From NCBI GenBank assembly GCA_900555345.1, contig USKS01000046.1, positions 1 through 8,556 of the forward strand: a DNA stretch of 8,556 nucleotides, in the 5' to 3' direction. Positions 2,855 to 8,556 of this stretch are shown in pieces. The position numbers and the translations under genes were made by a program. The DNA is from an uncultured Eubacteriales bacterium (GTDB taxonomy: Bacteria; Bacillota_A; Clostridia; Oscillospirales; CAG-272). A model generated the notes under the pieces. That model saw nothing but the letters and a program-made list of their open reading frames with translations, had not been told where the DNA came from and did not search any database. Numbering within the stretch: the stretch's first letter is position 1; each line of letters starts with the position of its first letter.

Positions 2855-4120
2855 TCAGTTCTTTGCTCCGTCGAGCTTTGCGCCGTTGGTGCCTTTTGCG
2901 CCGCCTCCCGAGGTGGGAGCGCCCATGGCAAATATGTTTGTGTCAAATGAGTATGTAATATCACTTTCAAGACGCGCACGCTTCAGTGCCAGCGCTATCA
3001 GCCTGTCGAGCAGCTCGCTGTATTCCATGCCGACGGGCTTCCACAGATAGAATGCAAGAGAGCCGGGGATCGTGTTGAATTCGTTGATATAAAGCTCTTC
3101 CGTGGCGTTATCAATCATAAAGTCTATACGGGATACACCGCTGCAGCCCATATGAATAAACGCTTCACAAGCCATTTTACGGATGCGCTCGCGCATTTCA
3201 TCAGTCAGGTCCGCTGGCACCTTGCGCGAAAGGCTCGCCATGCCGCTGCTCTCAAGTCCGCTCTTTGAGCCTGCCGCTTTTGCGGGAGAGGTTTTTGCGC
3301 CGCCTTTTGCGCCTTTTGCGCCGCCCATGTATTTATCCTCATAGCTGAGTATTTCGTCGTGCATAAACGGTTCTTCACACTCAGAGGCGACAGCGCTCTC
3401 GGAGTCGCCCAGAACGGAACAGTTTATCTCGCGCAGCTCCGTAATAGCCCTCTCGCAAAGAACGTTTTCGGCATAGTTGAATGCGTCGCCGAGTGCCGTC
3501 TCAAGCGTGTCACGGTCGGCGGCTTTTGAAATACCGACGCTTGAGCCCAGATCAACGGGCTTTACAATTACGGGATAGCCTATGCGCTTTTCGATGGCGT
3601 CAATGCAATCGGGGATGCTGCTGCGGTATTTGTTGAATCTGAGGCAGTCGAGAACGGGAAAGCCTCCGTCACGAAGTACGGCCTTCATTACATATTTATC
3701 CATGCCGACGGCTGAAGAAAGCACGTCGCAGCCCACAAAGGGAACGCCCAGCGTTTTCAGATAGCCCTGGAGGGCGCCGTCCTCAACGTTTGTGCCGTGC
3801 ACTATGGGGAAAGCAACGTCAATGTCGGTTATTGTATTCTTACCGAAACGCTTTGCGGGGTAACATTCAAGGTATGTTCTGCCTTTGTCCGATACGAGGA
3901 TAACACGCTGCGAAGCCTTGCACATTGCGTCGAGATCCTTGTACGATGCGGCGTCGCGCAGCGCCTCTCCCGTATACATACTGCCGTCCTTGGAGATGTA
4001 AACGGGGAAAATGTCGTATTTGGCAGTGTCAAGATTCTCCATTGCCTGGAGTGCCGAAATAACCGATATTTCATGTTCAACGCTTTTGCCGCCGAACAGC
4101 ACACACAGTTTTGTTTTCAT
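2855..4120 (-). CDS. ddl: D-alanine--D-alanine ligase with a low-complexity insert in the active-site loop
   Basis: A 421-residue cytosolic ATP-grasp enzyme that joins two D-alanines for the peptidoglycan stem peptide. The start at 4120 (MKTKLCVLFGG) has GAGAGG about 10 bases upstream; a TTG at 4156 would overlap murF. Visible signatures are EHEIS with Glu15 (14-18), HGTNVEDGALQG (108-119), AVGMDK (137-142), KPVDLGSSVGISK (187-199), RIDFMID with Asp333 (331-337) and ELYINEFNTIPG with Glu346 and Asn348 (342-353). Tyr264 in SYEDKYMGG (259-267) is the omega-loop tyrosine of D-Ala-D-Ala enzymes; D-lactate enzymes such as VanA have histidine in this loop, so an ordinary D-Ala-D-Ala product is expected. 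Right after it comes a Gly/Ala/Lys/Ser-rich insert (about 266-293). A related GGGAKGTNGAK tail closes the protein, making it longer than the usual 300-370 residues. It is the last gene of the operon, 32 bases after murF. Confidence 0.93.
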   Translation of the reverse strand: MKTKLCVLFGGKSVEHEISVISALQAMENLDTAKYDIFPVYISKDGSMYTGEALRDAASYKDLDAMCKASQRVILVSDKGRTYLECYPAKRFGKNTITDIDVAFPIVHGTNVEDGALQGYLKTLGVPFVGCDVLSSAVGMDKYVMKAVLRDGGFPVLDCLRFNKYRSSIPDCIDAIEKRIGYPVIVKPVDLGSSVGISKAADRDTLETALGDAFNYAENVLCERAITELREINCSVLGDSESAVASECEEPFMHDEILSYEDKYMGGAKGAKGGAKTSPAKAAGSKSGLESSGMASLSRKVPADLTDEMRERIRKMACEAFIHMGCSGVSRIDFMIDNATEELYINEFNTIPGSLAFYLWKPVGMEYSELLDRLIALALKRARLESDITYSFDTNIFAMGAPTSGGGAKGTNGAKLDGAKN

Positions 4121-4152
4121 AAAAATCGCGCCTCTCTTATGCTGATATAGTA

Positions 4153-5730
4153 TCAATAATTATCGGGAAGATCGTTTTCCAACAAAACGATCTTTGCCCC
4201 TTCGCAGCGGATGGAGTAGACTTTATCCATTGCGTCCTTTATGGTGTCAGCCACAAAAATTTTTTCGTCAGGGTACCCCGCATCGTGAAGTCCTGCAACG
4301 ATCGGCACAGCCTGCCTGCGTCCCACGGGTATCACAAGGTCGCACACAGCGGCGGCTTCGCTGCCGAACTCGCGGTTAAGGCGTTCTTCCTCGCTGCCCA
4401 GCTCTACCATGCCCGGGGTAACGAGGATCTTCATGCCGTCAAAACGACTGAGAGTATCAAGCGCCGCACGGCATCCGCTGGGGTTTGAATTGTAAGCGTC
4501 ATCCAGAATTATCATGCCGGGCTTCTTTATAAGCTGAAGCCTGTGAGGTACGGGGGATATGCGGCACACACCGTCGTAAATGGCTTTGTCGTCAACGTCG
4601 AGATAATGCGCCATAGCGATTGCGCCGCAAAGATTTGTAACGTTGTGCGCACCGACCAGCTGCGTTGCGAAATCATGTACGCTGCCGTCGGGGTATCTTA
4701 CGCTGAACTGCGTGCCGGAGCTTGAAACGCTTTTGAGCACTGCGCTGTATGCGGCATCCTCACGGGTGCCGTATGTAACGGCGCCCGCGGGCATATTGTC
4801 GCGCAGATATTCGTTGTCGGCATTGATAAACGCCGCGCCGCCGGGCTGCAGATTGTTTGCAAGCTCAAGCTTGGTTTTGATTATGTTGTCAATGGACTTA
4901 AAGGTCTCAAGATGCTGAGGACCGACCGAGGTGACAATGCCGTACTTGGGTGATGCAATATCGCAGAGTTCTTTTATCTCGCCTACGCGCCTTGCGCCCA
5001 TTTCGCAGATGAATATTTCGTGATAGCCCCGAAGAGAGGAGCGAACGGTCTTTACAACTCCCATGGGAGTGTTGTAATTGCCGGGTGTCATAAGTACGTT
5101 GAAGCGCTGCTTCAGTATTTCGTTGAGAAAGTATTTAACGGAGGTTTTGCCGTAGCTGCCCGTAATGCCGATAACCGTTAGATTTTGGCAGGAGCGGAGG
5201 ATTTTCAGCGCGTCGTTGAGATACCACCGACGAACGGCAGCCTCTATGGGCGCGTTTATTACATTGGCAAGGAGAAGAAGCGCGGGGGACAGCGCATATG
5301 CCAGAAGCATTACAGCATAGTCTGCGCCGACGCCGCCGAGAAGCCATGCCGCGGCGCCTGCCGCCGCGCAGAGCACCGCATATGTCACCGCCATGCGCTT
5401 GACTCTTGCGGTATATACAAGCGGGGTCTTTGCGCCTTTTTTCGGCAGCTCCGAAAGGGCAAACAGCAAAAGCGCCGCAAGAGTGATCGCGTGGAGGATC
5501 ACCGCTTCGGTCGTTCCGAATTTCATAACGGCATCTCCGGCAAAGCACACAAGCGCCAGTACAAGAGAGAGTATGTTTGTCACAGCCGTGCCCATATTGC
5601 GCTTTTGCCACTTCAGATGCTCCGATGTGTTGTACGAGTTCAGCTGGAACATATGGCAGGTGCGCATAAAGCTCACCGTGCAGGCAAAGGCATAAACTGC
5701 CGTAAATATCGAAAGAATGATCGGTTCCAT
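4153..5730 (-). CDS. murF: MurF-type Mur ligase with an N-terminal membrane domain
   Basis: A 525-residue protein of the UDP-MurNAc-tripeptide--D-alanyl-D-alanine ligase family, which adds the dipeptide made by Ddl to the wall precursor. Residues 1-160 hold about five hydrophobic helices (2-20, 48-68, 76-93, 113-132, 137-158) with the cytosolic-looking motif FQLNSYNTSEHLKWQKRN (28-45) between the first two. The Mur ligase core starts at the P-loop GITGSYGKTS (188-197), with TPGNYNTPMG (215-224), HLETF (273-277), the MurF-type DDAYNSNPSG (410-419) and GMVELGSEEER (440-450). It ends LLENDLPDNY. Classical MurF is soluble and about 450 residues, so the extra length is the membrane part. The start has AAGGA about 8 bases upstream. 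It follows the hydrolase gene by 10 bases and precedes ddl by 32, so one transcript makes both steps. Whether it is the cell's only MurF cannot be told here. Confidence 0.9.
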   Translation of the reverse strand: MEPIILSIFTAVYAFACTVSFMRTCHMFQLNSYNTSEHLKWQKRNMGTAVTNILSLVLALVCFAGDAVMKFGTTEAVILHAITLAALLLFALSELPKKGAKTPLVYTARVKRMAVTYAVLCAAAGAAAWLLGGVGADYAVMLLAYALSPALLLLANVINAPIEAAVRRWYLNDALKILRSCQNLTVIGITGSYGKTSVKYFLNEILKQRFNVLMTPGNYNTPMGVVKTVRSSLRGYHEIFICEMGARRVGEIKELCDIASPKYGIVTSVGPQHLETFKSIDNIIKTKLELANNLQPGGAAFINADNEYLRDNMPAGAVTYGTREDAAYSAVLKSVSSSGTQFSVRYPDGSVHDFATQLVGAHNVTNLCGAIAMAHYLDVDDKAIYDGVCRISPVPHRLQLIKKPGMIILDDAYNSNPSGCRAALDTLSRFDGMKILVTPGMVELGSEEERLNREFGSEAAAVCDLVIPVGRRQAVPIVAGLHDAGYPDEKIFVADTIKDAMDKVYSIRCEGAKIVLLENDLPDNY

Positions 5731-8239: not shown

Positions 8240-8326
8240 GCCGGTGTGTTGGAATTGGCAGACGAGGCGGACTCAAAATCCGTTGGTAGCGATACCGTGC
8301 GGGTTCGACCCCCGCCACCGGCACCA
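8240..8326 (+). tRNA. tRNA-Leu (anticodon CAA), CCA encoded
   Basis: A class II tRNA. The acceptor stem GCCGGTG (8240-8246) pairs with CACCGGC (8316-8322), then A and an encoded CCA (8324-8326). The anticodon stem GCGGA/TCCGT encloses CTCAAAA, giving CAA at 8274-8276, which reads the leucine codon UUG. A long variable arm (GGTAGCGATACC, about 8285-8296) is typical of Leu/Ser tRNAs. The T-arm is GCGGG-TTCGACC-CCCGC (8299-8315). The 3' part, from the T-stem's second strand to the CCA, is the first piece of the downstream 96-bp tandem repeat. Confidence 0.95.
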
Positions 8327-8556
8327 TAAAGCGAAGCCGCTCCCCGAAGGGGAGGGGCTTTCGATTTATGAAAGTAACGGTTCGGGGGTCGAACCCAGTC
8401 GACGTCCCCGCCACCGGCACCATAAAGCGAAGCCGCTCCCCGAAGGGGAGGGGCTTTCGATTTATGAAAGTAACGGTTCGGGGGTCGAACCCAGTCGACG
8501 TCCCCGCCACCGGCACCATAAAGCGAAGCCGCTCCCCGAAGGGGAGGGGCTTTCGA
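8310..8556 (+). repeat. Perfect 96-bp tandem repeat beginning inside tRNA-Leu
   Basis: Units at 8310-8405, 8406-8501 and 8502-8556 (cut by the window end) are identical at every position visible. Each unit starts with the tRNA 3' end CCCCGCCACCGGCACCA, then a terminator-like hairpin, then ATTTATGAAAGTAACGG, then a hairpin GGTTCG/CGAACC (8379-8395 in unit 1) and AGTCGACGT. Unit 1's head is the real tRNA; later units have only its last 17 bases preceded by TCGACGT, resembling the T-loop TCGAC with two bases added. There are no variable spacers, so it is not CRISPR. The number of copies beyond the window is unknown. Confidence 0.95.
8333..8361 (+). terminator. Weak terminator of tRNA-Leu, repeated in every 96-bp unit
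   Basis: AAGCCGCTCCCC (8334-8345) pairs with GGGGAGGGGCTT (8349-8360) around a GAA loop, with one G-G mismatch. The T-run after it is interrupted (TTTCGATTT), so stopping may be incomplete. Identical hairpins recur 96 and 192 bases later (8429-8457 and 8525-8553). Confidence 0.7.

Follow-up and report, generated by a model that had tools for sequence, protein, structure and literature searches.

A perfect tandem array at the 3' end of a clostridial tRNA-Leu gene, and putative gene-free insertion elements at tRNA ends in related genomes

No docking sites for mobile DNA are better known than the 3' ends of tRNA genes, and a tRNA gene whose 3' end is repeated perfectly raises the question of what produced the repeats. 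We address this question for a stretch of 8,556 nucleotides from an uncultured Eubacteriales bacterium, referred to here as the window, in which a tRNA-Leu gene with the anticodon CAA and an encoded CCA (8240-8326, plus strand; detected by ARAGORN, and by Rfam RF00005 at 47.9 bits) anchors a tandem repeat at 8310-8556. Tandem Repeats Finder reports a period of 96, 2.6 copies (2.57) and 100% matches, and a direct check places the start of the identity at offset 96 exactly at 8310. A previous sequence-only reading of this DNA had proposed a perfect 96-bp tandem array, which both methods confirm, with three units identical over 247 bases; the identity stands, but only two units are full (8310-8405, starting within the tRNA, and 8406-8501, the same as the first, both on the plus strand), while the third consists of its initial 55 bases (8502-8556, plus strand), because the array runs into the end of the window.

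Each unit opens with the tRNA's final 17 nt, CCA included, as had been stated earlier: these are 8310-8326 in the gene itself, and the same sequence recurs at 8406-8422 and 8502-8518. The CCA is followed by a palindromic trailer hairpin, an inverted copy of the T-arm, the sequence TCGACGT from 8399, and the next tail. The trailer hairpin (8327-8368, not assigned to a strand; repeated at 8423-8464, and incomplete from 8519) had been called a terminator. The palindrome is present and its fold is terminator-like, but the T-run on the plus strand is weak and not canonical, and the terminator scan flags the minus strand only. What had been taken for a second small hairpin is in fact part of the inverted T-arm copy CGGGGGTCGAACCC (8383-8396, minus strand, with a second occurrence at 8479-8492), which forms the left arm of an outer stem and is exact over 14 nt in each full unit, a length reached by 0 of 5000 dinucleotide shuffles. 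The second copy of the tRNA 3' end, measured from the T-loop TCGA to the CCA, lies at 8399-8422 (plus strand) and a third at 8495-8518; the copy starts with TCGAC at 8399 and shows a 2-nt difference before CCCCG (TCGACGTCCCC vs TCGACCCCC).

Because the inverted T-arm is contained within each unit, the unit forms one long hairpin, an imperfect palindrome with a loop of only six nucleotides between its arms. A single 96-bp unit folds at -50.3 kcal/mol (z -5.2) and the whole 247 bases at -133.7 kcal/mol (z -7.0), with 0 of 200 shuffles being as stable in either case. The two arms are imperfect complements carrying identical mismatches in both full units, which suggests that the unit was formed first and amplified afterwards. 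A CRISPR array was considered and rejected, since it needs varied spacers and the window units are identical across the full 96 bp.

The main rival to the interpretation developed below holds that the array is a plain tandem duplication involving no mobile element. Replication slippage or template switching would have copied the hairpin-prone DNA of the tRNA end, where the T-loop TCGA is self-complementary, together with its trailer, giving a palindromic unit later expanded by unequal crossing over. Both the long imperfect palindrome and the perfect identity of the units are in line with this explanation, which we nevertheless regard as rather unlikely in view of the relatives described below.

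The sequence-only reading had seen no integrase in the window, and Pfam scans of its eight proteins agree, revealing no integrase, transposase or phage protein among them. These proteins are a glycosyltransferase, an alpha/beta hydrolase, a Mur ligase, a D-Ala-D-Ala ligase, FeoA, a vitamin-uptake-type transporter, a short-chain dehydrogenase and a MucBP-domain protein. MurF has one relative at 99% identity in the protein collection, the next being at 72-76%. Its best match in whole genomes, at 54%, falls in the genus of genome G003, with 54% in other family members too, and the window's own species and genus were thus not found among the whole genomes. No relatives of the window glycosyltransferase were found. 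The tRNA-Leu(CAA) is identical at 87 of 87 bases in four species of the G003 genus (G325, G308, G310 and G323). We rejected a phage or plasmid source of the unit: the 247 array bases have no plasmid match, and the phage matches, in the 20 records listed out of 26, extend across the tRNA but no more than 17 bases past its end. Searches of viral contigs for unit-specific patterns returned none, or coincidences in repetitive CACCGCC-type sequence, and we draw no reading from the matches listed in a scan of viral contigs for CACCGGCACCA pairs.

The relatives share a common frame, consisting of a tRNA, a terminator, an inverted T-arm, a covarying non-coding core, a copy of the tRNA's own 3' end and a second terminator. 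We refer to this arrangement as a tRNA-tail cassette, a class defined in this analysis, from relatives. The earlier reading would have been countered by the lack of any such repeat at tRNA-Leu in close relatives, together with a lack of transcripts, yet two loci, L161 and L146, duplicate the tail at tRNA-Leu(CAA). In both, the tRNA is followed by a terminator, an inverted T-arm, a spacer with the hairpin ACAGTCC-GGT-GGACTGT, a second tail and a second terminator. Loci L326 and L356 have an equal layout with Leu(CAA)-type tails, the tRNA there not being called by ARAGORN. All four loci contain a core, whereas the window does not. On balance we favor the interpretation that the window holds a core-less tRNA-tail cassette, tandemly amplified, and that in relatives the frame acts as an insertion element of tRNA 3' ends.

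Within the closest genus, 23 of 34 genomes carry the pattern ACAGTCC-RSY-GGACTGT, as do 96 of the 300 genomes drawn from the family, with no hit for a control in which the pattern was reversed. The fetched loci contain 95 distinct hairpin copies, and a tRNA on the same strand stands upstream of 42 of them, covering 18 isoacceptors. The last 18 nt of the hairpin's own tRNA are repeated with at most 3 mismatches in 32 of these 42 (28 exactly; 14 isoacceptors), compared with 2 of 420 swapped-tail controls, and the inverted arm matches the host tRNA in 27 of 42, compared with 46 of 420 controls; as many loci were fetched because of the hairpin, the tail-copy counts are not prevalences. A good tail copy is missing in 10 of the 42, and no upstream tRNA was detected for the remaining 53 of the 95 copies, some of which are cut by contig ends and some of which are clearly elsewhere. 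Two tRNAs give less biased figures. At tRNA-Ser(GGA) a tail copy is present in 11 of 30 fetched loci of the genus, two more (L445 and L447) having cut-off elements. For tRNA-Leu(CAA) genes with at least 200 bases downstream, the tail is copied in 0 of 29 among the best family loci and in 2 of 23 among the genus loci. Similar non-tRNA copies of the hairpin element are seen in the viral contigs L390, L398 and L402.

Several core subfamilies can be distinguished by eye. Consensus folds for subfamilies A (20 sequences) and B (15 sequences) consist of an outer stem made of the tRNA-matching arms, together with apical and side hairpins. Covariation scores are 0.280 in A, compared with 0.115 for shuffled alignments and at most 0.062 for slid partners, and 0.275 in B, compared with 0.125 and at most 0.076, respectively, these being scores for consensus structures predicted from the very same alignments. 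Further pair types are not in excess over shuffles (471 of 500 were as high in A and 129 of 500 in B), and neither, in subfamily A, are pairs of which both members have changed (as many in 99 of 500 shuffles). Alignment A2 lost 3 of 23 matched subfamily-A stretches at trimming, and alignment A3 omits one of 16 sequences, L447, as a cut-off element. In subfamily B the apical hairpin has been swapped whole, from ACAGTCC..GGACTGT to ATGCTTC..GAAGCAT, in L441, L450, L452 and L459. When 391 genomes drawn from the class were searched with the core models at E <= 1e-5, A was detected in 11 and B in 5, with G003 among those matching B.

Strong stem covariation in the relatives' cores, along with a tail copy that still ends in CCA, is what would be expected if each unit were the gene of a small structured RNA whose 3' end resembles that of a tRNA, maintained for some function in the cell, for example as a decoy for tRNA-processing enzymes, and not as mobile DNA. 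The sequence-only reading had likewise listed a functional array of small RNAs among the origins of the repeat; the covarying cores keep an RNA role possible in the relatives, but the window units have no core, the occurrence of tail copies at tRNA-Ser(GGA) is patchy, and the cores match no Rfam family at gathering score. We therefore hold it very improbable that the array consists of such genes. A known RNA family was also tried and rejected: when 16 loci were compared with Rfam, only tRNA, nearby Gut-1 and one SRP RNA reached gathering scores, and whatever else matched at relaxed thresholds, apart from tRNA and Gut-1, was weak and unrelated.

That cores change target and take their arms from it is best supported by an identical 78-nt core, which L327 carries at tRNA-Gly(GCC) and L338 at tRNA-Pro(GGG), with the arms fitting the respective tRNA in each case. 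This is the sole pair with identical cores among the 19 copies compared (L373, the twentieth, was omitted), and at least 9 of 10 arm positions are paired in 14 of the 19. Plain duplication leaves the presence of one core on two tRNAs unexplained, as it does the association of a single frame, with covarying cores and a matching tail, with 14 isoacceptors.

In order to define the boundaries of the duplicated segment we compared the tRNAs with their tail copies, using 38 tail-copy tRNAs drawn from 156 distinct tRNAs in loci that were mostly picked for the hairpin. Direct identity extends 18-22 nt leftward in 35 of the 38 (1, 12 and 31 in the other three), and exact identity to the right stops at the CCA or within 5 nt of it in 30 of the 38. 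From CCA to CCA the inserts measure 122-304 bp and contain no genes. The trailers following the two tails differ in 23 of the 34 cases scored (at most 0.42 of the maximum) and resemble each other in 11 (at least 0.63), by a score without a null. The 11 cases in which both trailers are similar could be plain duplications, the trailer having been repeated along with the tail, and they count in favor of that explanation. The same is true of locus L104, where after position 1587 a tRNA-Leu(CAA) is followed by a terminator and an exact inverted acceptor end (TGGTGCCGGTGGC), with no core and no tail copy.

The downstream trailers of 37 filled sites were compared with those that follow empty tRNAs of matching isoacceptor type, and only 5 sites gave a score above 25. 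Clear empty and filled pairs are formed by L450 and L452 with the empty L454, and by L458 with the empty L457; in these pairs the trailer match begins at the first base past the CCA. These matches indicate that the block of hairpin, arm, core and tail sits exactly where the CCA would otherwise meet the old trailer. Gain of the block is the simpler reading of these sequence comparisons, and its loss, if the tails recombined with each other, would leave the same picture. Empty and filled pairs, too, are left unexplained by plain duplication, although this answer concerns the relatives and still allows the window to be an independent case.

Tandem arrays are not confined to the window. Units of 169 bp (2 copies; tail copies with 0 and 1 mismatch of 18) are found at tRNA-Met in L367, of 211 bp (2.1 copies; 0 and 0 mismatches) at tRNA-Ser in L485, of 141 bp (2.7 copies; 3 and 3 mismatches) at tRNA-Gln in L477, and of 159 bp (2.4 copies) at a Leu-type tail in L307, where the tRNA was not called. 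Elsewhere unlike cassettes stand in series: 194 and 209 bp at tRNA-Ser in L435 (tail mismatches 0 and 1), 140 and 178 bp at tRNA-Pro in L366, and two unlike cassettes each at tRNA-Ser in L301 and L322. In L366, at tRNA-Pro(GGG), the inserts of the two cassettes are unlike and the first has no ACAGTCC hairpin. The 141-bp array (2.1 copies) next to the tRNA-Ser of L480 lacks a good tail copy, the best having 6 mismatches of 18, and the 152-bp arrays of L312 and L317 (2.5 and 2.9 copies), which represent a hairpin-element subfamily with a different outer stem, have no tRNA detected nearby.

These arrays bear on a further explanation, namely that a real tail duplication at a contig end, single or of another copy number, was walked around a cycle in the assembly graph, so that the copy number, or the tandem arrangement itself, is unreal. 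The array is perfect and runs up to the last base of the window, and hairpin sites are found within 250 bp of a contig end in 17 of 65 cases against 2.3 expected, from which it appears that assemblies break at these sites, as the window does. A cycle nevertheless requires at least one real junction from the end of a unit to the start of a tail, and similar runs have been assembled within contigs: in L367 (G487:C12, 42 kb), in L435 (G321:C55, 61 kb) and in L477 (G123:C15, flanked to left and right by more than 1.2 kb). We consider an assembly effect improbable.

Duplication of the tail and preservation of the tRNA are described for islands at tRNA genes (PMC4383910), and tRNA ends are described as variable hot spots (PMC10589994). 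The tail copies could be attL and attR scars accreted from departed phages or islands with tyrosine integrases. Such integrases do adjoin the same tRNAs in siblings, at tRNA-Leu(CAA) in L162 and at tRNA-Ser(GGA) in L442 and L453, and each of the three reading frames examined there matches PF00589. No second tail was found in the 2.4-5.3 kb past the confirmed integrases, where the far ends of the islands lie beyond the contigs, nor in about 40 kb past the tRNAs in L451 and L106, which have only integrase-like remnants, judged by eye. The shortness of the inserts argues against accretion of att sites, and so does the same core on two tRNAs with different tails, unlike the prediction of a fixed attP; we see little probability in this explanation.

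The cassettes do resemble Islander-type tRNA islands and ICEs with a tyrosine integrase, in that the 3' part of the tRNA is the target, the tRNA remains whole, the far end is marked by a displaced copy of the tail, and repeated events lead to arrays. They differ in being gene-free and 122-304 bp long, in the occurrence of one core on two tRNAs and in having, for the most part (27 of 42), an inverted T-arm at the left end. Casposons (casposase, family 2) offer another comparison, since in A. boonei the casposon is reported to insert at the 3' end of a tRNA gene and to duplicate 14-15 bp of its target in direct orientation (PMC6614799); the cassettes, by contrast, duplicate 19-22 nt, are non-coding and carry an inverted arm that matches the target.

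REP sequences and REPINs, which are associated with RAYT proteins, are short, palindromic and non-autonomous and occur in many copies per genome, all of which applies to the cassettes. In L373 (1274-1836) a hairpin-type element lies between two frames, one resembling the N-half and the other the C-half of a RAYT-like transposase, as if within a broken gene, and this suggested a RAYT origin; the N-half scores 18.6 bits to PF01797, under the 23-bit cut-off, and the C-half matches no family. RAYT/REP as a general driver was rejected, because the hairpin is present in 0 of 30 fetched loci with Y1 transposases, so that unlike REPs the hairpins flank no Y1 gene in these loci and no enzyme could be tied to the elements in this way, and because Y1 genes differ little in presence between element-rich (18 of 25) and element-free (11 of 25) genomes. 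We know of no counterpart among REPs of the duplication of a tRNA tail. Integron attC arrays and CALINs are imperfect, unlike hairpins in tandem at one site, comparable to the unlike hairpin cassettes in tandem at tRNA-Ser in L301 and L322; in contrast to them, the cassettes are gene-free, are anchored at a tRNA tail rather than at attI, and have no integrase seen within.

How, then, does the window array relate to these elements? It shares with the class a copy of its own tRNA's tail up to the CCA, an inverted T-arm, the TCGA boundary typical of subfamily A, and a trailer hairpin. A core is absent from the array as far as R2 (7.3 bits, E = 1) and R1 (8.2 bits, E = 0.7) can detect one, neither score being significant or better than what the rest of the window gives. 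R2 fits its outer stem and tail to 8381-8423 and 8477-8519 by skipping its whole interior, at a non-significant 7.3 bits, and it matches elsewhere in the window at 8.2 bits, above the array score. As the core is absent, the window unit is placed in the class by its frame, and a frame of tail copy and inverted T-arm could arise without a mobile element. With moderate confidence, therefore, we regard the window unit as a core-less form of the frame rather than as a proven member, and we infer its descent from a core-bearing cassette. Among the origins listed by the sequence-only reading, a mixture of repeated site-specific integration and excision at the tRNA and unequal crossing over is supported by the relatives.

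The sequence comparisons can be combined into a tentative mechanism. Some activity would place the cassette at the CCA, between the CCA and the original trailer, presumably as a true insertion rather than the converse of a loss, and both arms of the outer stem would be copied from the target tRNA upon insertion, as seems likely from their match to the host tRNA. The cassette would bring its own terminator, and since the element ends in a duplicate of the terminal 19-22 nt, the tRNA would stay intact. The duplicated tail would offer a new target as well as homology for unequal recombination, and recombination between tails would remove or multiply cassettes. In the window, the core would have been lost, leaving the six-nt loop, and the core-less cassette would have been amplified, perhaps via unequal recombination or slippage between the repeats.

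More broadly, and with less confidence than for the window itself, we suggest that Clostridia may harbor undescribed miniature elements, gene-free and structured as RNA, that home to tRNA 3' ends, form their outer stem by copying the target's T-arm in both orientations, leave the tRNA unharmed and stack into arrays of like or unlike cassettes, the window containing their smallest form, core-less and freshly amplified. We found no description of such elements in the open-licence literature. To our knowledge, mobile users of tRNA 3' ends are kilobases long and carry an integrase. If the suggestion is correct, a gene-free element of 122-304 bp that fits each tRNA would need the target to be copied into the element, and we found no description of a mechanism of this kind in the open-licence literature. 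Such elements would also help to account for the breaking of contigs at tRNA genes in assemblies of Clostridia and for spurious reading frames at these genes, and they would provide a ready family of covarying structures for experiment.

Several minor observations concern sequences near the cassettes and elsewhere in the window. Gut-1 RNA (RF01706) resembles the cassettes in that its hairpin arrays adjoin some of the same loci in the genus, and differs from them in sequence and structure, with no match in the window. It is found above gathering score in L302 (462-534) and L309 (1322-1396), as chains of GTGAAAT-type hairpins near cassettes, and similar chains of GTGATGC hairpins follow tRNA-Leu in L105, L147 and L155. 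Within the window, the stretches 2330-2440 and 2520-2650 are related intergenic sequences which, judged by eye, resemble diverged copies of a dispersed repeat with the motif CACCCC..GAAAAAACCGxGTA..GTAAAGGGAA..GCAGCGG. The D-Ala-D-Ala ligase encoded at 2855-4156 on the minus strand has a Gly/Ala/Lys-rich insertion, MGGAKGAKGGAKTSPAKAAGSKSG, and a similar tail.
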